Source: a virus
IMG/VR virus record: IMGVR_UViG_3300047201_000052
Coordinates: 1-23,291 of that record
Reading direction: 5' to 3' (one strand)
DNA: 23,291 nt
Shown: in pieces, positions 5,764 to 23,252 of the stretch
Layout: each line of letters starts with the position of its first letter
Position numbering within the stretch: the stretch's first letter is position 1
Translations under genes and position numbers: made by a program
Notes under the pieces: generated by a model
What the model saw: only the letters and a program-made list of their open reading frames with translations
The model's database searches: none
Told to the model about the DNA's origin: nothing

Positions 5764-6064
5764 TTTGTAAACCTGAAACTTCCACAATTGCTTCCATTAA
5801 ACTTTTTATATTTCTTAAACCAAATTCTTTGATTTCTTCATCACTTGCATCTGGAATTGATTTTTTCAAAATCCGAGTTACAAGTTCTACAATAATTTTT
5901 CCTTTTCTTTCTTTTTCTTCTATTGATATGTTTGTTTGATCTTCTCCTAAAACCATTAAGGAAGGCAAATCATCAATATTAAGAAAGTTTGATTTAAGTT
6001 CAATTTCTACTCCTTCAATTGTGAAAATCTTCGATTTTCCGCATGATGTTGAAAGTTTTGACAT
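5744..6064 (-). CDS. Tail assembly chaperone (gpG-like)
   Basis: The protein has 106 residues and starts six bases after the stop of the preceding small gene. It begins with a beta-rich segment (KIFTIEGVEIELKSNFLNIDDLPSLMVLG), followed by a helical, charged half (RKGKIIVELVTRILKKSIPDASDEEIKEFGLRNIKSLMEAIVEV). This layout and its place directly before the tape measure are typical of the chaperone that coats the tape measure while the tube polymerises. The C-terminal end overlaps the second chaperone frame. Function is inferred from fold pattern and gene order; no enzymatic motif is expected in this family. Confidence 0.7.
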   Translation of the reverse strand: MSKLSTSCGKSKIFTIEGVEIELKSNFLNIDDLPSLMVLGEDQTNISIEEKERKGKIIVELVTRILKKSIPDASDEEIKEFGLRNIKSLMEAIVEVSGLQNVAASN

Positions 6065-6070
6065 TTTATT

Positions 6071-6337
6071 TTATCCGAATGTTCTGAGCTTTTTTTCCTC
6101 CTGCTCTTTTAACTTATTTTTTAAATTATCAATTTGATTTTGCAAAGAAGAAAACAAAGTGAGAATTTCATTATATTGTTTTTTTATTTTCAATAATTCT
6201 GAAATCCCCACCCAATAAATATCACCATAGTCTTCTTTACATAATTTTTTGAATTCCTTGAGGATACCTATCGGTATCTTTGTTACTTTAAAGTTCGTAT
6301 TTACTTGATTTTCTATTTCCTCAATAAATTCTTCCAA
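6071..6337 (-). CDS. Small coiled-coil protein between tail tube and chaperones
   Basis: I do not recognise this protein. The proposed start is the TTG at 6337, preceded by GGTGAGG at five bases and lying seven bases after the tail tube stop; it gives 88 residues. A GTG at 6376 would give 101 residues but lacks a ribosome-binding site and overlaps the tube gene by 32 bases. The middle contains LKEFKKLCKEDYGDIYWVGISELL and the C-terminal half is a predicted coiled coil with heptad spacing (YNEILTLFSSLQNQIDNLKNKLKEQEEKK). The position is right for a tail accessory or chaperone-related protein, but the coiled coil would also suit a small regulator. Confidence 0.55.
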   Translation of the reverse strand: MEEFIEEIENQVNTNFKVTKIPIGILKEFKKLCKEDYGDIYWVGISELLKIKKQYNEILTLFSSLQNQIDNLKNKLKEQEEKKLRTFG

Positions 6338-6344
6338 ATTATCC

Positions 6345-6935
6345 TCACCATTTAGTTGTTGAACTTGTATAAGCACTTAAAGTTGAAAGTGTTCCAGATG
6401 TTGTATCTTTTGACCAAATTCCCCAATTATTAACTCCATCACTATCTTCTTCTGTTGTTTTGAAAGTCATAGTTGCAGTTAAATTATCTCCTGCATCCAT
6501 AGATCCTTCTAAAGATGTAAGATAACAATCTGCCCAAGCTTTTCTGTATGCTTCATTTGATCCTGTAATCGCAGTATTTGCTACTGTAACTCCAGACTGA
6601 TTTGTCCAAAGTAAAATTATTCTGTATTTTCTGTCGTCTGTTGAACTTGTTATAGCCGCACCCGATGCCGACCAAGTAGATGAAGCAGTTTGCCCTGCCG
6701 CTATCCAATCAAAATCTGCATGACTTACGGGTATTCCATCAAAAGTTATTTCCATGTCTTCTTTTGGAGAAATTCTTGTAATCTTTCCTGCAAAAGTATC
6801 TATTCCTTCTACATCTCCAAATCCTCCACTCCAACCCAAGTTTGTTGTTCTTGTTTGTAATGCTACTTCTGATCCTGATAAAGCACTGATACTAATAAAC
6901 GCTTTACTATACCAAACTTTTTTATCCATTGCCAT
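6345..6935 (-). CDS. Major tail (tube) protein
   Basis: The product has 196 residues and polymerises into the tail tube. It is preceded by an AGGAGG site at eight bases, the best ribosome-binding site in the window, as expected for an abundant protein, and by a 100-base spacer holding a possible promoter. The sequence is rich in Ser/Thr/Gly/Trp with alternating strand-like patterns (WSGGFGDVEGIDTFAGKIT, MEITFDGIPV, GSMDAGDNLTATMTFKTTE). The phrase 'DNLTATMTFK' near the end is typical of strands in tube proteins. The gene lies after the neck genes and before the chaperones and tape measure, the standard siphovirus order. No Ig-like decoration domain is seen at the C-terminus. Confidence 0.75.
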   Translation of the reverse strand: MAMDKKVWYSKAFISISALSGSEVALQTRTTNLGWSGGFGDVEGIDTFAGKITRISPKEDMEITFDGIPVSHADFDWIAAGQTASSTWSASGAAITSSTDDRKYRIILLWTNQSGVTVANTAITGSNEAYRKAWADCYLTSLEGSMDAGDNLTATMTFKTTEEDSDGVNNWGIWSKDTTSGTLSTLSAYTSSTTKW

Positions 6936-7888: not shown

Positions 7889-8683
7889 TTATATAAGGGC
7901 TATTGACTGTTTTTTTAATATTCGTTTGAGTTCCTCAATACGATTATTGATTTCATCTAATCTAACTGGTGTAAAATTATCATACCCTTTGAATATTGAT
8001 TTATAAACAGAAGAATTAGCCATCTGTTTTATAGTTAATAAAATACTTAATTCTTTAACTAAACTTGGAGTAGAGGCATATCCATAACTGTATGTAACTT
8101 TTATCATATCTTCTCCGTCATATGGAAAATTGTCTATCCATCTTATTCTGCCTAATTCTAAATCTTCTGAATTAGCAATATAATCTTCTCCTAATCCTGC
8201 ACTTAGAGTTTCCCAATCGGGGACAGTTGTTTGAACTGAAAGATTTCTTTCAACAGAAGTCAAAGCAATAACAGGATAATGCTTTAAAAAAAAGACTTTT
8301 TGAGAAGCTTCCTTATTAAGATATTCGGTTCCAGATGAACTACCAAATGTTCTTCCTGTTTCTGTATCAATTAAACTATCAGAAGAACTAATCATTTGTT
8401 GGATTATACTATCAGGTAAGTCTGCATAATCATAATCTATTGTAATCGTTCCTGCAGCAGTTAAACCACTTAAACTTAATGTTCCATCATCTAAATCTGA
8501 TATATAATTATTTGGAGTTGTAACTAATACCCCGCCTGTATAAAGTGCAATAGAATTACTAATTAAATTATCATGATCTGTTTCATTCCAATCACTTCCT
8601 GTTCCAACTATCTCACTTCTTATTTTTGTATAAGCATCTTTTCCAAGATGTTTCCAAACTTCACTCGATGACGCATATGACAT
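7889..8683 (-). CDS. Head-tail connector (adaptor) protein
   Basis: The protein has 264 residues and a GAGGT site nine bases before the ATG. The N-terminal 100 residues include a strand-rich insert (GTLSLSGLTAAGTITIDYDY). The rest follows the pattern of gp6/gp15-type connectors that bind under the portal: a helix around DSIIQQMISSSDSLIDTETGR, then 'HYPVIALTSVERN', a strand-rich part ending in VKVTYSYGYA-like IKVTYSYGYASTPSLVKEL, and C-terminal helices (LLTIKQMANSS, NNRIEELKRILKKQ). The first 23 bases overlap the end of the HNH gene upstream. The role is well supported by the 'TYSYGYA..P..VKEL' signature and by its place after the capsid gene. Confidence 0.7.
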   Translation of the reverse strand: MSYASSSEVWKHLGKDAYTKIRSEIVGTGSDWNETDHDNLISNSIALYTGGVLVTTPNNYISDLDDGTLSLSGLTAAGTITIDYDYADLPDSIIQQMISSSDSLIDTETGRTFGSSSGTEYLNKEASQKVFFLKHYPVIALTSVERNLSVQTTVPDWETLSAGLGEDYIANSEDLELGRIRWIDNFPYDGEDMIKVTYSYGYASTPSLVKELSILLTIKQMANSSVYKSIFKGYDNFTPVRLDEINNRIEELKRILKKQSIALI

Positions 8684-9206
8684 TGTAATTATACCTCTCT
8701 TTTAATAATGATTGAAAAAATGAAGTCCACTGTTTTCTATTAAAATTAGTTTTCATATGGCAACTTATACATAAAGTAATACAATTTTCTTTTATAGTAT
8801 TTAATTTATTGTAATCAATATGATGAACTTGTAATCTATTTTCACTTCCACAAATCACACAAGCATGATCTCTTAATTTTATTGCTTCTTTAAATATTTC
8901 AGTAAAATTCTTTCCCCATTTTTCAAACGATTTTCCACCTTTCCAATTAGGATGTTTTTCTAATTTTTTAAAAGAACCAGAATGAAACATAGATTTTCCT
9001 TTATTCCAAGCAGGAAATCCTAAACGATATTTATTTTCTTTCATCATTAAAAATTCTTTTCCTTTATTCCAAGGAATATATCCTTTTTGAAAAGCAGTTT
9101 TTGGAAGATGATTTTTAACTCCATTAGAAATCTTTTCTTTGATTGTTTCACTAAGTATAATTCCTTTTCTACTTGGTGGTTTTCCATAACCTATTTTGTG
9201 TGTCAT
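8661..9206 (-). CDS. HNH homing endonuclease with NUMOD3-type repeats
   Basis: The 181-residue protein should cut DNA at a specific site and promote its own spread. Residues about 8-95 hold NUMOD3-like DNA-binding motifs (GKPPSRKGIILSETIKEKIS, then PWNKGK, AWNKGK and NWKGGKS). Residues about 125-165 form the HNH/zinc unit: CVIC, VHHID, an Asn in the ENCITL segment and CISCH. The gene lies between the capsid protein and the connector. It overlaps the connector start by 23 bases, so it is tightly packed against a structural gene. A weak AGGAAA precedes the ATG. It is probably a freestanding homing gene, since no intron sequence is visible around it. Confidence 0.9.
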   Translation of the reverse strand: MTHKIGYGKPPSRKGIILSETIKEKISNGVKNHLPKTAFQKGYIPWNKGKEFLMMKENKYRLGFPAWNKGKSMFHSGSFKKLEKHPNWKGGKSFEKWGKNFTEIFKEAIKLRDHACVICGSENRLQVHHIDYNKLNTIKENCITLCISCHMKTNFNRKQWTSFFQSLLKERYNYNVICVIE

Positions 9207-9266: not shown

Positions 9267-10262
9267 TTAGTTCTGTATTCCTCTTATCAAGCAATAGGCA
9301 TCTGGATATTTTATAGCGAAAGCCATCCTTGCGGTAGTTTGCCATACATAGACATCAGTTGAGATAGTATAATCTGTTTTCCAGATAAACCCTCTTCTTT
9401 GCCCAAGTATTCCAAACATCTTACTTCTTCCGACTAAAGCATCTGAACTTGCTGATAAAGCGGCAGTTGTTCCGTAGATTAAGTTTATAGGGACTTGTGC
9501 GCTTTGTTTCGCATTTGTTCCATATAATCTTCCAACTACTCCTTCTGCTATCAAAGGACTTGCGTATGTTTCCATGTTCAATATTGGCCTTGTAGTGCTA
9601 TCAGTAAGTTGCATTAACCCACCGATAGTTCTCGGGTTCCAATAAGAAACATCTGGTTGCATATGTTTATCCTTCAAAACTTCTGTAACTGCTACTGCGA
9701 TTGCTTTTAAGCTAATATTAGCTCCTGTGCATCCACTTGCAGTTGCACCTGTTCCCCAAGCTCCAGTAATGTTTGTATTTCCAGCGGCATCAACGGCATT
9801 TGTATAAGATGCTGTATGATACAATCCAAAGAAAGGACTTGCTGCGCCTGTATTACCAGTCGTTAAACAAGAACCTGTCAAAATTTTTCCATCAATATCT
9901 AATGCAAGATCGGTTGCCATTTGGTCTACCAAAGAGTTAGCCAAACCTACATTATTATCTTCAAGAACTTCTGAACTTGCTTGAACAAGAGAAGCTACTT
10001 TTTTAGCGGTTAAAGTTATCTGTCCGTATGCGGGATTGCTCTCTGTTATTGCCCCTGTTTCTGTTACCCAATAAGCAGTTGTTCCAGAAGTTACCTTCGG
10101 AATATACTGCACATCACTTGTCATTTGTCTTACATCCAGATCATCCATTGTTATGGTTTTCTGTGTAATCAAAGCAAGTAACTGATTGGAAAACTCATCA
10201 GGAACAAGGTATCCACCAGCACTATTTGTTGCTTCGTTTAAAGCTTTTGTAATGCTCGGCAT
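9267..10262 (-). CDS. Major capsid protein, HK97 fold
   Basis: The 331-residue product forms the icosahedral shell. It opens MPSITKALNEATNSAGGYLVPDEF, where 'GGYLVP.EF' marks the start of the N-arm in many HK97-family capsids. Further family features are PKVTSGTTAYWVTETGAI, the long helix area SSEVLEDNNVGLANSLVDQMATDLALDIDGKIL, and a C-terminal beta part with FGILGQRRGF and ARMAFAIKYPDAYCLI. There is no N-terminal delta domain: the protein begins about where a mature, cleaved HK97 capsid protein begins. The scaffold is therefore expected on another protein, most likely the gene just upstream, whose stop is one base before this ATG. No ribosome-binding site is seen, so translation is probably coupled. 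Confidence 0.92.
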   Translation of the reverse strand: MPSITKALNEATNSAGGYLVPDEFSNQLLALITQKTITMDDLDVRQMTSDVQYIPKVTSGTTAYWVTETGAITESNPAYGQITLTAKKVASLVQASSEVLEDNNVGLANSLVDQMATDLALDIDGKILTGSCLTTGNTGAASPFFGLYHTASYTNAVDAAGNTNITGAWGTGATASGCTGANISLKAIAVAVTEVLKDKHMQPDVSYWNPRTIGGLMQLTDSTTRPILNMETYASPLIAEGVVGRLYGTNAKQSAQVPINLIYGTTAALSASSDALVGRSKMFGILGQRRGFIWKTDYTISTDVYVWQTTARMAFAIKYPDAYCLIRGIQN

Positions 10263-10263
10263 T

Positions 10264-10695
10264 TTACTTTACAAAGAGACCCTGTTTAATAGCCATTTCG
10301 CCCAAACTCAATTTCTTCTGAGGTTCTTGTTTTTCAACTAAACCTCTTTCGTTTTCGAGTTCTTTTAATCCGTCTTTTAGAGCTTCTTTAATTGCTTTCA
10401 CAATTTCAGAAACATCTATTTGTTTTGTCTCAATTGTTTTCACAATTTCAACATTTTCGGATTTTTGGCTTTTTGTTTCTTCTTCCATCGTCTCTCCTTT
10501 TCCTCCATTTAAATTTAATTCATCATCTATATCTTCTGTTTCACCTGTAAATCTTGTTTTAAGACTTGCATTTGAAATAGATTTTATAAGTGAAAATGAA
10601 CTAAAAGACGCATGTGCATCTGGATATGCTGGAATTCCAACTGCGGAAGTTTCATATAATCTTAATTTTCCCCAAACTTTAATTTTTCTTTTCAT
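10264..10695 (-). CDS. Prohead protease C-terminal part fused to scaffold-like region
   Basis: The 143-residue protein starts at an ATG that overlaps the stop of the N-terminal protease part as ATGA, with GAGGT six bases before it. Residues 8-29 (KLRLYETSAVGIPAYPDAHA) match the strand that closes prohead proteases, usually written E-x-S-x-V-x-x-P-A-x-P-D-A. The Glu at residue 15 lies where the family often has an acidic residue near the active site. Residues 55-85 are acidic and Ser/Lys-rich, and about 88-125 are a long helix (DVSEIVKAIKEALKDGLKELENE), typical of delta/scaffold domains. It therefore looks like the end of the protease joined to the scaffold that the capsid gene lacks. A separate scaffold with a chance motif is the less likely alternative. 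Confidence 0.7.
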   Translation of the reverse strand: MKRKIKVWGKLRLYETSAVGIPAYPDAHASFSSFSLIKSISNASLKTRFTGETEDIDDELNLNGGKGETMEEETKSQKSENVEIVKTIETKQIDVSEIVKAIKEALKDGLKELENERGLVEKQEPQKKLSLGEMAIKQGLFVK

Positions 10696-11282
10696 TCTTC
10701 TACCTCTATGAATTTTGGTTCTTCTATTGGTTTTCCGCCTATACTAAATCCAATAGGCATTCCTTCATTAATATATTGCCAAAATAATTCTTGATCAGGA
10801 TGTGCTTTATTTAATCGAACTACTGCAACTAAATGGTCTCCTTCTTGCCTTGCGTCTATCCAAGAGCCCATCATTTGTTTCCAAGAATAAACATTTCTTT
10901 CTCCTGTTTGTTCGTGAAATCCATGGTCTGGAAAAAATCCTATTGTTCCAGATTTAAATTGCATAACCATATCATCAATAGCTTCTTGGCTCATCATTTC
11001 ATTATCTCTATCTTCTTTTAATCCACTTACTGTAACTTCAATAAATCTTTGTTTTGATTTTTCTACTGCATTTGCAGATTTTTGAATATCTACTTCTTCT
11101 TCCCAAAATCTTGTAATAGGTGCTTTAACAAAGAAAACTTCTTCATCTTTCTTATATTGTGCTTGTGCAATTGCCCAGATTTCATCATCTGTATAAGGTT
11201 TTTTAGTTCTTGGATTAGTTTTTCCTTTAAGATTTCTTACAACTGCATCGTGAATTTCATCAAGTTTTTGCGGAATTTTAAC
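10692..11282 (-). CDS. Prohead protease N-terminal part, no canonical start codon
   Basis: The frame is open for 196 codons after a TAG at 11285-11283 and reads as real protein throughout (PQKLDEIHDAVVRNL, DDEIWAIAQAQYKKD, RFIEVTVSGLKEDRDNE). Active-site candidates of the herpes-assemblin-like prohead protease family are His120 in PDHGF and Ser180 in GFSIGG. The frame contains no ATG, GTG or TTG before the ATG-ATG at 10997. Starting there would delete 95 residues, including the first core strand. The HNH gene ends at 11278, inside the beginning of this frame. Possible starts are the ATT at 11276, two bases after the HNH TAA with a weak AGGT upstream, or a +1 shift at GGT-TAA. The third catalytic residue probably lies in the next gene. 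Confidence 0.75.
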   Translation of the reverse strand, partial: VKIPQKLDEIHDAVVRNLKGKTNPRTKKPYTDDEIWAIAQAQYKKDEEVFFVKAPITRFWEEEVDIQKSANAVEKSKQRFIEVTVSGLKEDRDNEMMSQEAIDDMVMQFKSGTIGFFPDHGFHEQTGERNVYSWKQMMGSWIDARQEGDHLVAVVRLNKAHPDQELFWQYINEGMPIGFSIGGKPIEEPKFIEVEE

Positions 11283-11481
11283 CTACCAATAGTGGTTTCT
11301 CATGATGAATTGCCCAATGACAATTATAACAAACCACCATCAAATTATTTAATTGATTATTAAATCTATTTCTATCTATGTGATGAACGCATAATCTTTC
11401 TATTTCTTCTCCACAAATCAATTTAAGGGTTCTTCCACAATTCTCACATTCTTTATTAATCTCTCTAAATTGCTTTGGCAT
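11278..11481 (-). CDS. Small HNH endonuclease abutting the protease
   Basis: The 67-residue product is little more than a bare HNH unit: C12-x2-C15 (ECENCG), VHHID at 32-36, Asn in NNLMVV, and C51-x2-C54-H55 (CYNCH), with four Cys placed to hold one zinc ion. It has no DNA-recognition extension, unlike the second HNH gene in this window. A TATA box lies 20-29 bases before its ATG and there is no ribosome-binding site, so the message is probably leaderless. The stop TAA lies inside the start of the protease frame, which has lost any normal start codon. The first codons, Met-Pro-Lys, could even derive from the original protease start. Freestanding homing gene, intron-encoded endonuclease and bypass-type element are all conceivable. 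Confidence 0.85.
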   Translation of the reverse strand: MPKQFREINKECENCGRTLKLICGEEIERLCVHHIDRNRFNNQLNNLMVVCYNCHWAIHHEKPLLVG

Positions 11482-14657: not shown

Positions 14658-14886
14658 ATTTTAATTTGTTTGCTTCCATAAATTTAGATATAATAAATCT
14701 TATTTTATTCTCTCTTGGGCGATAGACATTCCACCAAGAAAAATAACATTCTTTGCATTTAAAAAAATCATTGCATAACATAGTGCATTTTAAAACTTTT
14801 CCAATAATCTCTTTTGTAATTGGATTAATGATATCATACTCTAAATCGGTATCTCCATATCTGCCAAAACATTTTTTAACTCTCAT
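14611..14886 (-). CDS. Small Cys-containing protein upstream of the terminase
   Basis: I do not recognise this protein. The start chosen is the ATG at 14886, which gives 91 residues and an 11-base overlap with the glycosyltransferase stop; a start at 14916 would lie deep inside that gene. It has C-x3-C and C-x2-C pairs (LKCTMLCNDFFKCKECYF) that could hold a metal ion, an aromatic run (SWWNVYRP) and a basic, helical C-terminus (FENEKFKRYSKKNK). Its 3' end overlaps the terminase by 41-47 bases, so their translation is coupled. The position directly before the large terminase is that of a small terminase subunit, but no helix-turn-helix is evident. A zinc-binding accessory to packaging is an equal possibility. 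Confidence 0.55.
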   Translation of the reverse strand: MRVKKCFGRYGDTDLEYDIINPITKEIIGKVLKCTMLCNDFFKCKECYFSWWNVYRPRENKIRFIISKFMEANKLKFENEKFKRYSKKNKI

Positions 14887-16105
14887 TTTCAAACAATTGT
14901 ATATATCGAGATGCAATTATATCCCAATCATATTTTAAAGAGAATTTTCTTGCTCTTTCAGATCTTTCTTTTTTTCCTTCTTTCCATTCAAGATAAAGTT
15001 TTTCAAGAATTTCAGCAATTTTTATATCATTTGGAATTGCATTTTCTACTCCATTTGGGCCTATTTCAGTTACTTTTCTTCCATATTCATCTGTTAAAAC
15101 AGGAATAAATAAGTCTTGTTCACTTACTATTTCAACAGCAGAAGAATAATTTGTCATCATCAAAGGAACTCCTGCGCTCTGGCATTCTAATCCCGGCAAT
15201 CCAAAACCTTCTCCGCCCACAGCATAACAAAAAACATCCATTAAATTATAAATCTCATTCATGTTTTCTGGTTGGATATTTTGCCTTGTAATTACATCTA
15301 AGTTCGGTTTTGTGGTTACTATTTTAGGGGACGGTTTTTCTAATTCTGGATCTATTTCTGCTTCAAATTTAGTGATTAAGCAAGGAAGATCCCACCCCCC
15401 ATTTGTTTCTGTATGCAGTAATAAAACAACATCATTTTTTACTTTTGCAAATTTTGAAAATCCTTTTATAAGATTAGGCAACATCTTTCTTCTTTGATTT
15501 TTTCCAATAAATCCAACAACAAATTTATTATTGAATTTATATTTTAACCTTATTTCTTCTCTATTTGCTAAAGGATAATAAACTTTTGTATCTACCCCCA
15601 TGGGGATATATCTTAAATTTTTAACATTATGTTTTGTATAAAGAATTTCTCCATTTTTTGCGCCAGCAATATTTATGTCTGGAAAATCAAGAATTCTACT
15701 CCATAACATATGCTCCCAACTTTCCGTATCAACTAAAGAAATGCAAAACCACCTTCCTTTCCATCCTCTTTTTTTGGCTTCACAAATATTTAAATTAGGA
15801 GAGAAATCTATAAATCCTGCTGTTATTCCAATATCTGCCATAGTCAATAAAACATCTGGTTGATATTTTAAAAGATAAGGAAGAACTGTATCAAATCCAT
15901 ATTCTGCTCTATGAACTGGGAGCATCCAATAACCTTCTTTTGTTTCGTGAGGTCTGTCTCTATTTTGCCATCCAACATGATAAAATTTCCAATCAGGTTT
16001 AAGTTTCTTCCATCTTGTTAATAGATTATCCCAAATTTGTCCATACCCGGTAGATGTTTTTGGATCATCTCCGTAAGTGAGCACACAGAATTTTTTATTT
16101 TCCAT
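14876..16105 (-). CDS. GT4-type glycosyltransferase
   Basis: The 409-residue protein has the two-domain GT-B layout of family 4. The N-terminal domain contains STGYGQIWDNLL and PYLLKYQPDVLLTMADIG. The C-terminal domain begins about residue 190 (KFVVGFIGKNQRRKMLPNLIKGF) and carries the nucleotide-sugar motif EGFGLPGLE with both Glu of the EX7E pattern, followed by SAGVPLMMT. It should transfer a sugar from an activated donor to a growing glycan or a protein. No membrane segment or signal is seen. It overlaps its neighbours on both sides (11 bases each) and has GAGGT seven bases before the ATG. Donor and acceptor cannot be told from sequence. Confidence 0.85.
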   Translation of the reverse strand: MENKKFCVLTYGDDPKTSTGYGQIWDNLLTRWKKLKPDWKFYHVGWQNRDRPHETKEGYWMLPVHRAEYGFDTVLPYLLKYQPDVLLTMADIGITAGFIDFSPNLNICEAKKRGWKGRWFCISLVDTESWEHMLWSRILDFPDINIAGAKNGEILYTKHNVKNLRYIPMGVDTKVYYPLANREEIRLKYKFNNKFVVGFIGKNQRRKMLPNLIKGFSKFAKVKNDVVLLLHTETNGGWDLPCLITKFEAEIDPELEKPSPKIVTTKPNLDVITRQNIQPENMNEIYNLMDVFCYAVGGEGFGLPGLECQSAGVPLMMTNYSSAVEIVSEQDLFIPVLTDEYGRKVTEIGPNGVENAIPNDIKIAEILEKLYLEWKEGKKERSERARKFSLKYDWDIIASRYIQLFENES

Positions 16106-17165
16106 TTTTTAAAACCTCAATTAATTTTTTCGCTGAATTTTCCCAGCTCCATTTCTTTCTTATATCTTCTGAATTGATTAATGCTTTTTCTTTTAATTCT
16201 TTTTTATGCTCAAAAGCATATCTCATTTGTTTTTTTAAACTTTCTTTATCTATTAAAGGTTGTAAATTGCCTTCAGCAAAAAATCTTTTATCTGCCTGTT
16301 CCATCTTATCTGCATCAATCCATAAGACACTATCTTTTCCTCTGCAAAAATCCATATGCCCGGAATTATTATCTTTAGTTATTATTAAAGGAAGCCCTGA
16401 TGCCATAGCATTTATTGCTGTTAATCCAAAACCTTCCCCTCGTGTAGGCATTACAAAACAATCTGATTTCTGATAAAATTCAGTTAATTCTTTTTCTGGA
16501 ACATATGCCTCATTAATTAAGATATTTGGATTAGTATGCCCAAGAAGTTCATAAATAGCATTTGCATAAAATCCTATATCAATTTTCTGCCAGAATGTGC
16601 TAATCTTTAACATTAATTTAACTTTTTCATCTTTAAATTCTTCATCAAAAGCTTTAATTAAAACATCTGTTCCTTTTCTGTCATCTATTTTTCCTGTCCA
16701 AGAATTTACTGATAAAAATAAATAATCTTCATTATCTTCAAATTTTTTAGGATAATACATTTCTGGATTTACCCCAAAAGGAACTATCTCTATTTTTTGC
16801 AAAACTCCATTAAATCTAAATAAGTTTTTAGTAGCTTGGCTTGGAACAAGAACTAAATCTGCTGTATTAAGAATTTCTGCCCATCCTTGATGAAGTTTTG
16901 TTCCTTCGTGCAAAAAATACCCTATTATTTTTCCATATCCATCTCTCCAAAATTGAGGATAATCAGCAAAGATAGTGCAATCTACATCTTTAACATCAAT
17001 AGCATTATTTAGAAAGTGTAATCCTTCATTAAAATCATATCCGCTATTCCAAATATCTGCACACTGAATTTTAATTTCTTTTTTTACGAGGGCTTTAACT
17101 ATCTCTCTGGATGCTGTTGCAATTCCTGTCGGATTAAACACGTTTCCTTTCCATAATACTTTCAT
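16095..17165 (-). CDS. GT4-type glycosyltransferase with altered EX7E
   Basis: The 356-residue GT-B protein starts MKVLWKGNVFNPTGIATASREIVKAL, the glycine/serine-rich acceptor-side loop common in family 4. The donor domain starts near residue 145 (YLFLSVNSWTGKIDDRKGTDVLIKAF) and has TRGEGFGLTAINAMASGLPLI. The second Glu of the EX7E motif is replaced by Asn, so the donor-binding site may be altered while the rest of the motif is intact. The ATG overlaps the preceding stop by four bases; the end overlaps the next glycosyltransferase by 11. It is clearly related in layout to that neighbour but not a recent copy. The substrate is unknown. Confidence 0.85.
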   Translation of the reverse strand: MKVLWKGNVFNPTGIATASREIVKALVKKEIKIQCADIWNSGYDFNEGLHFLNNAIDVKDVDCTIFADYPQFWRDGYGKIIGYFLHEGTKLHQGWAEILNTADLVLVPSQATKNLFRFNGVLQKIEIVPFGVNPEMYYPKKFEDNEDYLFLSVNSWTGKIDDRKGTDVLIKAFDEEFKDEKVKLMLKISTFWQKIDIGFYANAIYELLGHTNPNILINEAYVPEKELTEFYQKSDCFVMPTRGEGFGLTAINAMASGLPLIITKDNNSGHMDFCRGKDSVLWIDADKMEQADKRFFAEGNLQPLIDKESLKKQMRYAFEHKKELKEKALINSEDIRKKWSWENSAKKLIEVLKNGK

Positions 17166-17812
17166 TTTATTTTTTTAAAATCTTCTTTTGTATTTACATT
17201 CATATAATATCCTTTTAAAATATACCAATCTCTTTCTTCTACATAATTAAGGGCATCAGTTAATTCTCCAACTGGATTTTTCTTAATTGCCTTAAATAAC
17301 TCCTTAGTTGCCATATATATACCTAACCCTATTAAAGATTTTAAATTAGAAACATCTTTTGGCTTTTCTATAAATTGTTTAGTATAATCTAATCCAAAAT
17401 TTTTCTTTATTTCTTCTTTATTTTCAACTTTTTGCATGCCTACAAGCAAATCAGTTTTCATTCCCTTAAAAGCAGATTTCATAGGGTATAAATCTCCTTT
17501 AAATATTATGTCTCCTAAAATTATAAGCATATCATCACCACTAACTAAATCTTCGGCAAGAGAGATAGCATGAGCACTCCCTTTTTTTTCTTTTTGAGTT
17601 ACATATTCTAATGGCATTCCATTCCAATTATTTCCAAGAACATTTTCAATATCTTTTTCATTTTGGATAATTATCACTTTTCTTATTCCTAATTCAAACA
17701 TATTCAATAAAGGATATTCAATAAGATATTTATTTTTAATCTTGACTAATCCTTTCGTTCCCATTCCAAGTCTTGTTCCCATACCTGCGCAGGGCAGAAC
17801 ACCTACCATCAT
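17162..17812 (-). CDS. Sugar-phosphate nucleotidyltransferase
   Basis: The 216-residue enzyme should join a sugar 1-phosphate to a nucleotide, making the activated donor for the neighbouring transferases. The signature is CAGMGTRLGMGTKGLVKI at residues 8-25, with Lys20 and Lys24 at catalytic positions. KKGSAHAISLA and the metal-binding Asp101 in LIILGDIIF follow. The C-terminal part (FIEKPKDVSNLKSLIGLGIYM, GYYMNVNTKEDFKK) is the usual sugar-binding half. At 216 residues it is a minimal form without an added acyltransferase or dimer domain. It overlaps both neighbours by four bases. Whether it makes CDP-, dTDP- or UDP-sugars cannot be read from the sequence; the next enzyme's likeness to CDP-paratose epimerase hints at CDP. 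Confidence 0.85.
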   Translation of the reverse strand: MMVGVLPCAGMGTRLGMGTKGLVKIKNKYLIEYPLLNMFELGIRKVIIIQNEKDIENVLGNNWNGMPLEYVTQKEKKGSAHAISLAEDLVSGDDMLIILGDIIFKGDLYPMKSAFKGMKTDLLVGMQKVENKEEIKKNFGLDYTKQFIEKPKDVSNLKSLIGLGIYMATKELFKAIKKNPVGELTDALNYVEERDWYILKGYYMNVNTKEDFKKIK

Positions 17813-18834
17813 TTGAATAATTCCTGATTAGATGTTATCCAATCACAAAGTTTAATTAAACCTTTATCAATTGATATTTCTGGTTTCCAATTAAAATCTT
17901 TTTTGGCTTTCTGATAATCACATACAAAATACCAAAGATCACCTCTTCTTTTTGGATTAATAGTTATTAATGGTTGTTTATTATTATTAATAAGTTTTAA
18001 TTTCCATAAGCATTCTCCAAGAGAGATAGAATTTTCAATTCCTCCACCAATATTATAAATCCCTGTTGGACATCCTGCTTTAAACCAGCATTCAAATGCT
18101 CTTGCGGCATCTTCTGCATAAAGAATATCTCTTACTTGCTTATCAGTTCCGAAAATTGTTATTGGCTTTTCCATAATTGTTCTTATCGCAAAGTTAGCTA
18201 CCCATCCATGATCCATTCCACCAAATTGCCTTTCTCCATACATTCCTGTTAATCTAAAACTTGCAGTTTTCATTCCATACATTTCAGCATAACTTTGGGT
18301 GTATAACTCTGTTGCATATTTAGAAATATGTAAAGGAGTTAATTCTCCTTTTAGAACAGGTTGATTTTCATTAATTTCTTCAGGCACATTTACAAATCTT
18401 GTTTCGGTTTCTCCTAATAGTTCATTTATATCATTCCCATAAACATGAATAGAAGAACAATTAATAAAAGGACAATTTAATTTCTTTGCAATTTCAAGCA
18501 TATTTATACAAGACAGTATATTATTATCTGCATCATATTTTGGATCTTCTATTGCAATAGTCATAGCGGGTTGTGCGGCGCAGTGAATTATTAAATCTAT
18601 TCCTGAAAAATCTTCTGCGCATACATCTCTGCAATCCCATTTATGAAATTTAACTGATAATTTATCCAAGAAATCTAAATTATGCTTTCTTGAAGCCAGA
18701 ATATCAAAATCTGTTCTTTTTAATTCTCTGTCATTAAGATTATCAATTCCTTCTATTTTCCAACCTTGTTTTTTAAAATATTCAGCAACATGAGTTCCAA
18801 GAAAACCCGCCACACCCGAAATTAAAACTTTCAT
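17809..18834 (-). CDS. Nucleotide-sugar epimerase/dehydratase, CDP-paratose epimerase-like
   Basis: The 341-residue extended short-chain dehydrogenase has a Rossmann start GVAGFLG (G7, G10, G13) and 'IDNL' at the end of the second strand. NCSSIHVYG supplies the active-site Ser. The block MYGERQFGGMDHGWVANF plus KPITIFGTDKQVRDILYAEDAARAF closely resembles CDP-paratose 2-epimerases. The catalytic Tyr of the Y-x3-K motif is missing: residues 167-172 read PLHISK, with Leu168 where Tyr is expected and Lys172 present. The enzyme may use another proton donor, act on a different substrate or be inactive. A GAGGTG site precedes the ATG, which shares one base with the previous stop. Confidence 0.8.
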   Translation of the reverse strand: MKVLISGVAGFLGTHVAEYFKKQGWKIEGIDNLNDRELKRTDFDILASRKHNLDFLDKLSVKFHKWDCRDVCAEDFSGIDLIIHCAAQPAMTIAIEDPKYDADNNILSCINMLEIAKKLNCPFINCSSIHVYGNDINELLGETETRFVNVPEEINENQPVLKGELTPLHISKYATELYTQSYAEMYGMKTASFRLTGMYGERQFGGMDHGWVANFAIRTIMEKPITIFGTDKQVRDILYAEDAARAFECWFKAGCPTGIYNIGGGIENSISLGECLWKLKLINNNKQPLITINPKRRGDLWYFVCDYQKAKKDFNWKPEISIDKGLIKLCDWITSNQELFK

Positions 18835-20096
18835 TAGAAATCACACCTCTTTAATTGTTCTTCTATTTGATATTGATATTGTTTATAAGCTTCTAAATCT
18901 TTTAATTTATTTGAAATATCTACTAAAGTTTGATTATCTATATCACATATTTTGAAAGGACTAAATAAAAAATTAAAATCCTCATAATTGATTTTTTCAG
19001 GTATTCTTCCCTGTTCTTTTAAATCATTCCACATTTTTGTTCCGGGAAAAGGCGTAGTTATACAAACCCCAATTCCGCCCGTTATTCTGTTATTTTTGAT
19101 AAATTCTTTGGTTAATCTTATATCTTCAATAGTTTCATCTGGACCACCTATCATAAATGTTCCATTTGGAAATATTCCTATTTCATTACAAAGTTTTATA
19201 CTTTCTTCATTTTGAAGAATTGTTGTTCTTTTGTTATAAATATCAAGCATTCTTTGGCTTCCACTTTCCCAACCAAAAGTTATCTGTACACATCCCGCCT
19301 CTTTAGCCAAAATTAAAAGATTTTTGTCAAGATTATCAACTCTTGAATTTCCACCCCATCTTATTCTTATTTTTCTTTCTATTATTAATTCACAGATTTT
19401 CTTTACCCTATCTTTCATTACAAAAAAATTATCTTCAATAAAAAATAGACTATCAATTTGATGATGTTTAATCAGATATTCAATTTCTTCAATAACTTTT
19501 TCAGCAGAATTATATCTAAATTTTAATCCTTTAAAAGAATTATGGCAAAATGTGCAAGAATAAGGGCATCCTCTACTTGTTAGAATATTTCCTGTTCTTG
19601 AATTTTCTGGAATACATCTTAATATTTTTGGCTTTACACTAACATAGAATTCCATATTCAATAAATCATAGGCAGGTAAAGGCAATTCATCTAAATTCTC
19701 TATTGGAATTCCTTTGATTATTCCTGTTAAATTTTCATCAATTATCTTTTTTAAGATTATTTCTCCTTCTCCTATTACAACTGCATCTGCATGCTTAATT
19801 GCTTCTTCTGGCAGTATAGATGCATGAATTCCACCAATTACTACTTTATATCCTTTTTTTCTGGCTAAATCTGCACATAAATATGCTGTGTTAATTGTTA
19901 AAGTTGTTCCTGTAATTCCTACTAAATCTGGCTTGAATTCATCTATTTGGGAAAGATTATCTCCACTCGCCATATCCACTATTTTAACTTGATGATTAAA
20001 TTGCTTAATATAAGAAGCCAGTAATGCAAGAGAAATAGGTGGAGCTCCACTATAAGAAAACTTATTTGAAGGATTTATTAATGCAAGTTTGCTCAT
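18834..20096 (-). CDS. B12-binding-type radical SAM protein
   Basis: The 420-residue protein has an N-terminal cobalamin-binding-like Rossmann domain (residues 1-130: PPISLALLASYIKQFNHQVKIVD, PDLVGITGTT, KVVIGGIHASILPEEAI, VIGEGE). The His of the base-off motif D-x-H-x-x-G is absent. The radical SAM core follows with C177-x3-C181-x2-C184 in SRGCPYSCTFCHNSF, which should hold the 4Fe-4S cluster. Further core elements are FFIEDNFFV, GGNSRVDNL and FMIGGPDETIEDI. Family members methylate or rearrange unactivated carbons in lipids, peptides and sugars. It sits among glycosylation genes, with GGAGGT six bases before its ATG and a four-base overlap upstream, so a sugar or glycan carrier is a plausible substrate, though unproven. 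Confidence 0.85.
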   Translation of the reverse strand: MSKLALINPSNKFSYSGAPPISLALLASYIKQFNHQVKIVDMASGDNLSQIDEFKPDLVGITGTTLTINTAYLCADLARKKGYKVVIGGIHASILPEEAIKHADAVVIGEGEIILKKIIDENLTGIIKGIPIENLDELPLPAYDLLNMEFYVSVKPKILRCIPENSRTGNILTSRGCPYSCTFCHNSFKGLKFRYNSAEKVIEEIEYLIKHHQIDSLFFIEDNFFVMKDRVKKICELIIERKIRIRWGGNSRVDNLDKNLLILAKEAGCVQITFGWESGSQRMLDIYNKRTTILQNEESIKLCNEIGIFPNGTFMIGGPDETIEDIRLTKEFIKNNRITGGIGVCITTPFPGTKMWNDLKEQGRIPEKINYEDFNFLFSPFKICDIDNQTLVDISNKLKDLEAYKQYQYQIEEQLKRCDF

Positions 20097-21157
20097 TTCA
20101 TAACCTCCAAAACTTTTTCTGAAAATTTATCCCAAGTAAGATTTTTCTTTACCCATTGTTTTTTTCTTCCTGTTCTGTGATAATCTAAATAAAACATATC
20201 TTTTGCTGATATTGGATGTTCAAAATAAGTAACAATATGATCAATATAATCTTCTATTTTGTCACAAACAAAAGCTAAACCATTTTCTTCTAAAATAGAA
20301 CTTGCAGTCATTTCTTTGCTTACTATTATTATGCATCCAGCAGATATAGCTTCAAATGGACTTAACCAACTTCCCTGAGATTTAACAGGCATTAAAACTA
20401 TATCAGTTAAATTATAGATATTTCTTACTTCTTCTCTATTAATTACTCCTGTAAAAATAACATTTCCTATATTTCCATCTTGCATAATCTGATTTCTTAA
20501 TTCTTCTGCATAAGGATTAATTTCTTTTCCTACTAATAATAATTTAGCATTAGGAATTTTCTTTAAGACTTCTTTAAATATTTCATAAGTGAATTTTGTA
20601 TTCTTTGTTGGATGAATAAATCCTACTTGTGTAATAACAAAACTATCTTTCAAATCATACTTATCAGTTGGCTCAATCTTTTCAGAAAAGAAATCATAAT
20701 CAACTCCATAGTTTATTATCTCACTATCCATTCCATATAATTCTTTAAATCTCTTTTGGTTAAATTCATCTGCAACAATTACTTTATCTATAAAATTATT
20801 GACTATTTCTTTTTCCTTGTCTGGAACATATCCTAAATCCAAGAAAGATTGTGGTTCATTACAAAGCCAGATATTTTTGTTTTTTATTCCATAACTCATT
20901 AATTCACATGGATGATTATTGTAAAATATTACATCAAAATCTATATGAATTTGCTTTAATACATTTACCATTTCTGCGAAATCTACACAAAATAATAATC
21001 TTGTATCAATTAAATCTTTTCTCACATCTTCTTTCATCTGTGTAGTTAGAATAGTTGTCTGAATATGATGGTCTGAACAATAATTGCAGAATTTTACAAT
21101 TACTCTTTCTGCTCCGCCATAAATCCAAAACGAAGGATGGCAAATCAAGACTTTCAT
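20093..21157 (-). CDS. GT4-type glycosyltransferase with altered EX7E
   Basis: The 354-residue GT-B protein starts MKVLICHPSFWIYGGAERVIVKF, the GGAE loop of many family 4 enzymes. A hinge near residue 165 leads to the donor domain (SFVITQVGFIHPTKNTKFTYEIF, AKLLLVGKEI, VIFTGVINREEVRNIY). The donor motif reads SQGSWLSPFEAISAGCIIIV: the second Glu of EX7E is kept but the first is Gln. Such changes occur in active family 4 enzymes but can alter donor use. GAGGT lies ten bases before the ATG, and four-base overlaps join it to both neighbours. No membrane anchor is seen; membrane association through basic surface patches is common in the family. Confidence 0.85.
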   Translation of the reverse strand: MKVLICHPSFWIYGGAERVIVKFCNYCSDHHIQTTILTTQMKEDVRKDLIDTRLLFCVDFAEMVNVLKQIHIDFDVIFYNNHPCELMSYGIKNKNIWLCNEPQSFLDLGYVPDKEKEIVNNFIDKVIVADEFNQKRFKELYGMDSEIINYGVDYDFFSEKIEPTDKYDLKDSFVITQVGFIHPTKNTKFTYEIFKEVLKKIPNAKLLLVGKEINPYAEELRNQIMQDGNIGNVIFTGVINREEVRNIYNLTDIVLMPVKSQGSWLSPFEAISAGCIIIVSKEMTASSILEENGLAFVCDKIEDYIDHIVTYFEHPISAKDMFYLDYHRTGRKKQWVKKNLTWDKFSEKVLEVMK

Positions 21158-22197
21158 TCTAAAGAATACCTCTTTTTAATTAATAATCCTTGCCCTTTAA
21201 CATAAGGCATTACCCATCTTTTTAAAATTCTCTCATTAGTTAATTGATAGACTGCATTTCCTTTATTTTCCAGTTTCCCTTCATCAAATTTTTTATAGAT
21301 ATTTTTATATTTTTGTTTGTTCCAGAAATGAATATAATGCCCTCTTACAATAAATTTACAAGAAAGTCTATAAATTTTTCCAGATTCTATTTCATTCAGA
21401 TAATCTTTTAGATAACCATTAATCTTTATTTCCATTAAATTTTTAGGGTAGGGGGTTTTTCCCTTCTTTTCTCTTCTTTTATTTTTCTTTTCTATATCTG
21501 AAAGATTAATCGGGAAATATCTTATATCATCAGAATTAATAAAATTCTGAAATGCTTCTACGAAATTCCAAATTTCTGAATATTTTTTGTTTATTTTATC
21601 ATTCTTTTTATCATCAAAGATTTCTAATTTATTCTTTCCAATTCCATGATTATTATTAATAGAAATTCTAAAAATGTTTTTTGTGATAGGAAAATATTTT
21701 TCAATTCTTTCTAAATCTTTTGAAAGATATTCTTTTTCTTCTTCAGTATTATCTTCAACAATATTTATAGGTTTATCAAAATGGTAGCGTTCTATAATAT
21801 TTTTGGAAATAACCGCATTCTCATCATAATATAATGCTTCAATTCTTAATGCAGATAAATAAGGTTCATTTATATCCGTAGTCCAATTATTTTTTATAGC
21901 TTGTAAACTCTTTTTTTGTTGTTCGAGTTCTTCTTTATCATATCCATGTAAAATAGAAATCCCAAATATATATCCACTCTTATATGGGAAACAGCATTCA
22001 ATAAATACTTTATGAAAAGGCAAATTAAAAAAAGTTTTGTTATCACATTTAGTATTCTTTAATAAAAAAGTTATTGCATCATTTAATTCAAAAAAATTAT
22101 AATCTTCATAATTTAATCTCCATATTTCTCTCATTCTTAAAGTTTTCAATCTTCCTTTAATTCCTAATTCTTCATAAATTTCTTCTGGAGTTTTCAT
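21154..22197 (-). CDS. Unrecognised protein within the glycan module
   Basis: I do not recognise a function. The start chosen is the ATG at 22197 (MKTPEEIYEEL), which overlaps the previous stop as ATGA and has GAGAGGTG upstream; a start at 22212 is less likely. The product has 347 residues, is rich in Lys, Asn and Ile, and has no membrane segment. The middle is highly charged (NTEEEKEYLSKDLERIEKYF; KKNKRREKKGKTPYPKNL). The C-terminal 100 residues contain SCKFIVRGHYIHFWNKQKYKN and later KRWVMPYVKGQG. This recalls a 'VRGHWR ... W-x-x-P-x-x-(K/R)G' motif found in many uncharacterised phage and actinobacterial proteins. The link is from memory. Its tight coupling to radical SAM and glycosyltransferase genes suggests co-expression, not necessarily shared function. 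Confidence 0.6.
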   Translation of the reverse strand: MKTPEEIYEELGIKGRLKTLRMREIWRLNYEDYNFFELNDAITFLLKNTKCDNKTFFNLPFHKVFIECCFPYKSGYIFGISILHGYDKEELEQQKKSLQAIKNNWTTDINEPYLSALRIEALYYDENAVISKNIIERYHFDKPINIVEDNTEEEKEYLSKDLERIEKYFPITKNIFRISINNNHGIGKNKLEIFDDKKNDKINKKYSEIWNFVEAFQNFINSDDIRYFPINLSDIEKKNKRREKKGKTPYPKNLMEIKINGYLKDYLNEIESGKIYRLSCKFIVRGHYIHFWNKQKYKNIYKKFDEGKLENKGNAVYQLTNERILKRWVMPYVKGQGLLIKKRYSLE

Positions 22198-23252
22198 TTG
22201 TATAAAATGCACCTCTCACAAGATTTACACATTTTATTTGATTGAATAACATCTATCATAGTTTTATATTTTTCTCCTTTCCAAATAGTTTTAAAATCTT
22301 CTTTAAGAATATTGCCTAAACTTGTATCTCTTTGCCATTTTCTGTCATTCTGCTCATTAAGAGAGCAACAAGGAACAACTGTGCCATCTACAAAAATAAA
22401 GGGTTGGTTCCAAACTGTGCAGGTATTCATAGGAGATTTATTTCCTGTGTTTATATTGAAAGAAACAGGAATTCCAAGAGTTCTTCCTTTTTCCATTATT
22501 TCTCTTTTTTCTTCATCTGTTATGTCTATGAACCAATCCTCTATTTCTGGGTAGTTATGAAGTAATTTTGTAATTTGAACATTTATAACATCTACTTTAA
22601 GAGAATGTATCATTTCTAAATATTTTATTATTTCATGCTTGTTATGTTTTCCTATAATATAATGAAACCAAAGTTCAGGAAAATAAGAATTTCTTTCTTT
22701 TTTCATCTTGTCTAAAAGCTTGATATTTTTAATCACTTTTTCATAAGTTGCATTTACTCTAATTTTTTCATAAGTTTCTTTTGTTGCCGCATCCATAGAA
22801 ACATAAACCTTGTCTAATCCAATATCTAACCAGTGTTTTATATCTTCTGGCTTTAGCCAATTAAATGTATCAAAGATTTCTATAAAAATTCCTTCTCTAT
22901 TTTCCTTTAAATAAGACAGCATTTTTTTATAATCTATATTTGAATAACTCTCTCCTATTCCTGTTAATCCTATTTCTCTTAAATTTGGAAATTGCTTAAT
23001 TATTTTTTTAAAATTCTCAAAACTCATTAACTGACTTTTTTCTTTCCAGTGAGTATGCTCGCACATAATACATTTAAGAGGGCAGGTTGTTGATACTTCT
23101 ACTTCAATTTGTTCTGGATAAGGCCTGTTTGTTTGGATAAAATCAATTATCTGTTTATTTCTTGCACAATAGATAGTATGAAACCAGATATAATTAAAAC
23201 ACCATTTTAACCCTTTCTTATTAAAATTAGGATTAAGAATAAAAGTTTGCAT
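22194..23252 (-). CDS. Radical SAM protein with SPASM-type C-terminus
   Basis: From the ATG at 23252 the protein has 352 residues. C57-x3-C61-x2-C64 (STTCPLKCIMCEH) binds the radical SAM cluster, and LTGIGESYSN is the SAM-contacting strand. The C-terminus has added cysteines (NTCTVW, VVPCCSL and C342-x2-C345-x2-C348 in MCKSCERC) typical of SPASM auxiliary iron-sulfur clusters, with GNILKEDFKTIWKGEKY as the usual spacer. SPASM enzymes modify peptides or proteins and, in some groups, sugars and aminoglycosides. Codons above 23252 remain open in the same frame to the window edge, so the true start may lie outside and this entry may be short at its N-terminus. It overlaps the next gene by four bases and is the first visible gene of the operon. 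Confidence 0.85.
   Translation of the reverse strand: MQTFILNPNFNKKGLKWCFNYIWFHTIYCARNKQIIDFIQTNRPYPEQIEVEVSTTCPLKCIMCEHTHWKEKSQLMSFENFKKIIKQFPNLREIGLTGIGESYSNIDYKKMLSYLKENREGIFIEIFDTFNWLKPEDIKHWLDIGLDKVYVSMDAATKETYEKIRVNATYEKVIKNIKLLDKMKKERNSYFPELWFHYIIGKHNKHEIIKYLEMIHSLKVDVINVQITKLLHNYPEIEDWFIDITDEEKREIMEKGRTLGIPVSFNINTGNKSPMNTCTVWNQPFIFVDGTVVPCCSLNEQNDRKWQRDTSLGNILKEDFKTIWKGEKYKTMIDVIQSNKMCKSCERCILYK

Follow-up and report, generated by a model that had tools for sequence, protein, structure and literature searches.

The stretch of DNA analysed here (the window) comprises the 23,291 bases of IMG/VR record IMGVR_UViG_3300047201_000052, from an uncultured tailed virus. On its minus strand, to which all window coordinates below refer, the genes follow the order terminase, portal, a small HNH gene, part 1 and part 2 of a putative prohead protease, capsid, and presumed head–tail and tail genes. 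Part 1 (10692–11282; 196 codons open after a TAG) carries the motifs DHG (His120, codon at 10923–10925) and GFSIGG (Ser180, codon at 10743–10745), with only 16 residues between Ser180 and its C-terminus. Part 2 (10264–10695) encodes 143 amino acids from an ATG at 10695 to a stop codon at 10264–10266. The initial annotation had placed the end of the His120/Ser180 frame at a TGA at 10692 and the beginning of a second frame at an overlapping ATGA with a GAGGT site of its own, and both statements hold: the open frame of part 1 extends from 11282 to the TGA at 10692–10694, stop and start overlap in an ATGA (10692–10695), and an SD-like AGAGGT (10702–10707) is located 7–12 bases upstream of the part-2 ATG. 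Two HNH endonuclease-like genes (11278–11481 and 8661–9206) lie on either side of the head genes, the former terminating right at the start of part 1. Next to the terminase, positions 14876–23252 hold a series of sugar and radical-SAM genes, among them glycosyltransferases, a nucleotidyltransferase, an epimerase, a B12-binding radical SAM protein and a radical SAM protein with a SPASM domain.

The probable start of part 1, placed by homology, is an ATT codon (11274–11276), and there is no ATG at that position. The start matching MPKKLDEIH is likewise ATT in three relatives (L016, L025 and L041); in L041 it is preceded by a good SD sequence, AAGGAGG, and in L025 there is an additional in-frame ATG upstream of it. 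The ATT may be a real but weak start that holds the level of part 1 low.

Part 2 opens exactly at the last strand of the protease, KVWGKLRLYETSAVGIPAYPDAH. Its N-terminus reads MKRKIKVWGKLRLYETSAVGIPAYPDAH and is followed by an acidic, partly helical tail with the end KKLSLGEMAIKQGLFVK. Residues 4–28 (10612–10686) are predicted to complete the protease fold with a strand and a turn, and Glu15 (10651–10653) is the predicted third catalytic residue; the acidic residue expected of prohead proteases some 25 residues beyond the Ser is present as an invariant Glu, on a separate chain. Glu15, Ser17, Gly20, Tyr24 and Ala27 do not vary in the part-2 alignment (n = 25), nor do the part-1 His (DHG) and Ser (GFSIG) in the alignments of the clade. 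Residues 2–40 of part 2 have dN/dS values of 0 to 0.34, similar to those of part 1, and the tail is looser (0.16 to 0.98) in every pair with a computable ratio. Part 1 and the first 40 or so residues of part 2 are both under purifying selection. In one relative (L053, about 5960–6440) part 2 appears without the residues directly after the Glu, reading FGKIILFE and then FPKDLVSDELN with strand and Glu kept, which reflects either a deletion or an assembly fault.

The expectation that part 2 would match the protease family at its C-terminal end was borne out weakly for the window itself and better for its relatives. Window part 2 aligns with positions 133–158 of the 165 in Peptidase_S78 at E = 0.027 (15 bits against a cut-off of 21), and matches to the same profile were obtained for 7 of 25 clade members, the best at 6.8e-4. 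Part 1 has no Peptidase_S78 match in Pfam and scores below the family cut-offs of both Pfam and NCBIfam. We attribute the low Pfam score of each part to the splitting of the gene.

Searches with the capsid, part 1 and part-1 alignments collected a clade of 43 contigs, or 38 non-redundant ones once near-identical sequences were dropped. All 38 of the other non-redundant viral contigs show the protease split at the position seen in the window. Relative to part 1, the frame of part 2 is +2 in 21, +1 in 15 and 0 in one of 37 loci including the window. The single frame-0 locus is L067, in which a TGA and an SD-like site separate the two parts and the Peptidase_S78 match crosses the stop codon (profile positions 98–153, with one TGA within). 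The two parts adjoin almost exactly in the window, as they would if a sequencing or assembly error had interrupted a single protease gene there; the recurrence of the split in 38 other non-redundant contigs, in different frame relations, makes the chance of this negligible. A base error is thus ruled out as the cause of the split by the relatives, and the one extra base near 10692 that could join the frames is at odds with three frame relations across those contigs. We regard it as near certain that the genetic split of the protease gene is real and clade-wide.

The gene overlap of a few bases in most members (mostly 1–26 nt over the 37 loci) could also point to ribosomal frameshifting or stop read-through, by which a joined protease would be produced in addition to part 1. 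Against this stand the varying frame of part 2, a distance between the part-1 stop and the part-2 start that reaches 100 nt in L057, the use of TGA, TAA and TAG alike as part-1 stop codons, and the SD-like motif found ahead of the part-2 ATG in 26 of 37 loci as compared with 116 of 610 other ATGs within part 1. We consider such recoding highly improbable, and a common programmed frameshift or recoded stop is ruled out by the variation in frames and stop codons.

The nearest unsplit relatives are five in number: the haloarchaeal virus HRTV-28, whose gp11 (NC_062761, Suolaviridae) is annotated as a prohead protease, and L101, L102, L105 and L106. All five match Peptidase_S78, and a further unsplit protein (L103) scores 21.1 against that profile. 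In each of the five a homologous His/Ser part, the last strand and an acidic tail follow one another as in the split pair, and the gene stands immediately ahead of the capsid gene. Unlike the split pair, they form one chain, in which GFSIG is followed by a loop of about 20–30 residues linking the Ser strand to the last strand (DLMEISPVGI or similar) and then by the acidic tail. A part-1 profile matched the first half of unsplit archaeal-virus proteases (E = 3.8e-28), and a part-2 profile matched the segment right behind it (E = 1.6e-5). Judged from these alignments, the split divides what the relatives make as one chain. In a tree of the protease core every split form falls on one side of a single branch (support 92/93), which is consistent with a single origin of the split on a tree whose unsplit branches are long. 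Among annotated phages part 1 matched HRTV-28 only (two records) and part 2 had no match; a part-1 profile search of genome contigs likewise gave none. A search for hosts with the capsid profile returned distant bacterial loci only, the best of which, prophage L107, has a one-chain protease.

Two AlphaFold2 models bear on whether the active site is divided between the parts. The first is a joined model of the L067 chain read through its in-frame TGA (mean pLDDT 78, pTM 0.74), which rests on a distant member and on six alignment rows over the part-2 strand. In it the part-2 strand (149–161) comes after the Ser strand (133–144). VIA-align matches the model to T4 gp21 with a Z of 11.6 and an rmsd of 2.9 over 133 residues (gp21 residues 13–172), and to herpesvirus proteases with a Z of up to 9.0 and a match out to residues 174–204; the latter covers cytomegalovirus residue 157, termed "catalytic-site" in the titles of 1ied, 1id4 and 1iec. 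The second model is of window part 1 alone (pLDDT 81, pTM 0.60). Here residues 182–189 fall below pLDDT 50, no Ser strand is formed, and the Ser segment has a pLDDT of about 44. The match to T4 gp21 (Z 9.8, rmsd 5.0) ends at gp21 residue 152 rather than 172, and that to the herpesvirus proteases at residues 112–139 rather than 174–204. The contrast between the models, which compares different sequences (L067 and the window), is supportive rather than strict. The model of part 1 does not contain a complete protease, in keeping with the initial annotation: its structural match ends short and its Ser segment is disordered.

We consider it unlikely that part 1 is active by itself, through a Ser–His pair or another acid, with part 2 serving as scaffold only and its N-terminus being a relic or a docking motif. 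T4 gp21 is still matched by part 1 alone (Foldseek E = 0.003, in addition to the Z score above), and what herpesvirus and phage proteases have in common is chiefly the Ser and the His (PMC7411985). The part-2 strand, however, is under strong selection and includes the invariant Glu, the Ser segment is disordered in the model that lacks part 2, and the structural match of part 1 ends ahead of the third residue. It is very unlikely that the two parts are a former protease that now serves as head core only, a reading with which the part-1 scores under the family cut-offs would agree: His, Ser and Glu are unchanged across wide divergence, and ten clade contigs (up to 47 kb, linear records that may be incomplete) contain no other S78 or ClpP-type protease.

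The HK97-fold major capsid protein is encoded at 9267–10262 and matches PF05065 at E = 1.2e-25, with profile position 1 falling on capsid residue 16. It had been proposed that the capsid protein begins where a cleaved mature capsid begins, and the match fits this in showing no N-terminal delta domain; the capsid of prophage L107 is extended on its N-terminal side by about 130 residues. The acidic and helical scaffold-like region noted earlier in part 2 corresponds to the tail from about residue 40 to the end (10267–10578), which is indeed acidic and partly helical, the scaffold role itself being presumed. Its net charge is −6 in the window and −6 to −27 in relatives, its gene lies immediately ahead of the capsid gene, and part 2 has weak PHROG matches to head proteins (3.7e-4 and 7.2e-4). 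From this composition, the gene position and a capsid without a delta domain we infer that the tail is the scaffold. The capsid could then do without a delta domain because the scaffold would be carried by part 2.

The locus thus probably encodes a two-chain prohead protease of the herpesvirus/HK97 type, in which two overlapping genes specify the catalytic domain and the scaffold chain contributes the third catalytic residue. The reading given in the initial annotation, of a split protease with the scaffold on its second half, is supported. In the Salmonella phage SPN3US protease gp245 the triad is His77, Ser153 and Asp178, the Asp following the Ser by 25 residues (PMC5694885). For an amber product of gp245, cut just past the Ser at 155 residues, inactivity is expected since the third residue is missing, and a role in the entry of the protease into the prohead has been argued for the C-terminus (PMC7411985). 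Part 1 would be a natural counterpart of this truncation, and part 2 would make good both losses, that of the third residue and that of a scaffold-like tail. On the basis of this resemblance, and of the missing pieces being held by part 2, we infer that part 1 and the scaffold associate by strand complementation.

The mechanism that we propose, tentatively and with slightly less than even confidence, is that strand complementation brings in the third catalytic residue from the scaffold protein and that the protease is switched on when it meets the scaffold in the prohead. The barrel and its catalytic His and Ser would come from part 1; part 2 would provide the last barrel strand, in which the invariant Glu would occupy the third triad position, followed by the presumed scaffold. 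Part 2 would be produced in excess as scaffold and part 1 in few copies, and the two would pair inside the growing prohead. Part 1 would stay inactive before contact with the scaffold, and cleavage would therefore be coupled to assembly. Association in trans, the scaffold role and activation by assembly would all be elements of this scheme.

The split pair shares with the Peptidase_S78/HK97 prohead proteases the set of segments and their order, part 2 corresponding to the profile's C-terminal end; in known members these lie on a single chain, whereas the clade has two genes throughout. By motif and predicted fold the pair would be classed as a prohead protease, while it departs from the family in lacking a one-chain domain and in scoring below the curated profile threshold. 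The fold of the joined L067 model is that of T4 gp21 and the herpesvirus assemblins, both of which, unlike the split pair, have the catalytic domain in one chain; the gene for gp21 is, moreover, distinct from the scaffold gene. In lambda C/Nu3, herpesvirus UL26/UL26.5 and P2 gpO a scaffold encoded downstream of the protease can also be produced without the protease domain, its start coming after a complete protease domain. In the split pair, by contrast, the start of part 2 lies inside the catalytic domain, where part 1 stops. In HK97 the capsid protein itself carries the scaffold as one of its domains (PMC10275583), and no such domain is found on the window capsid. A literature search, incomplete for subscription journals, found no description of a split prohead protease. 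Profile searches overlook the protease in viruses of this clade because the active-site domain is divided between two genes. Tailed phages and herpesviruses alike pose the general question of how the head protease is kept silent before shell assembly. If our reading is true, an active site shared by enzyme and scaffold would couple protease activation physically to assembly, and would add to the known arrangements of scaffold on capsid, scaffold on protease and protease–capsid fusions.

Finally, many relatives (L004, L009, L010, L012, L014, L022–L025, L027, L029, L039, L043 and L053) have part 1 lengthened precisely where the split falls, by a Zn-ribbon-like extension, a DUF6582 extension or both. 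In L067 a DUF6582-like segment is found in part 2 instead, downstream of the strand.
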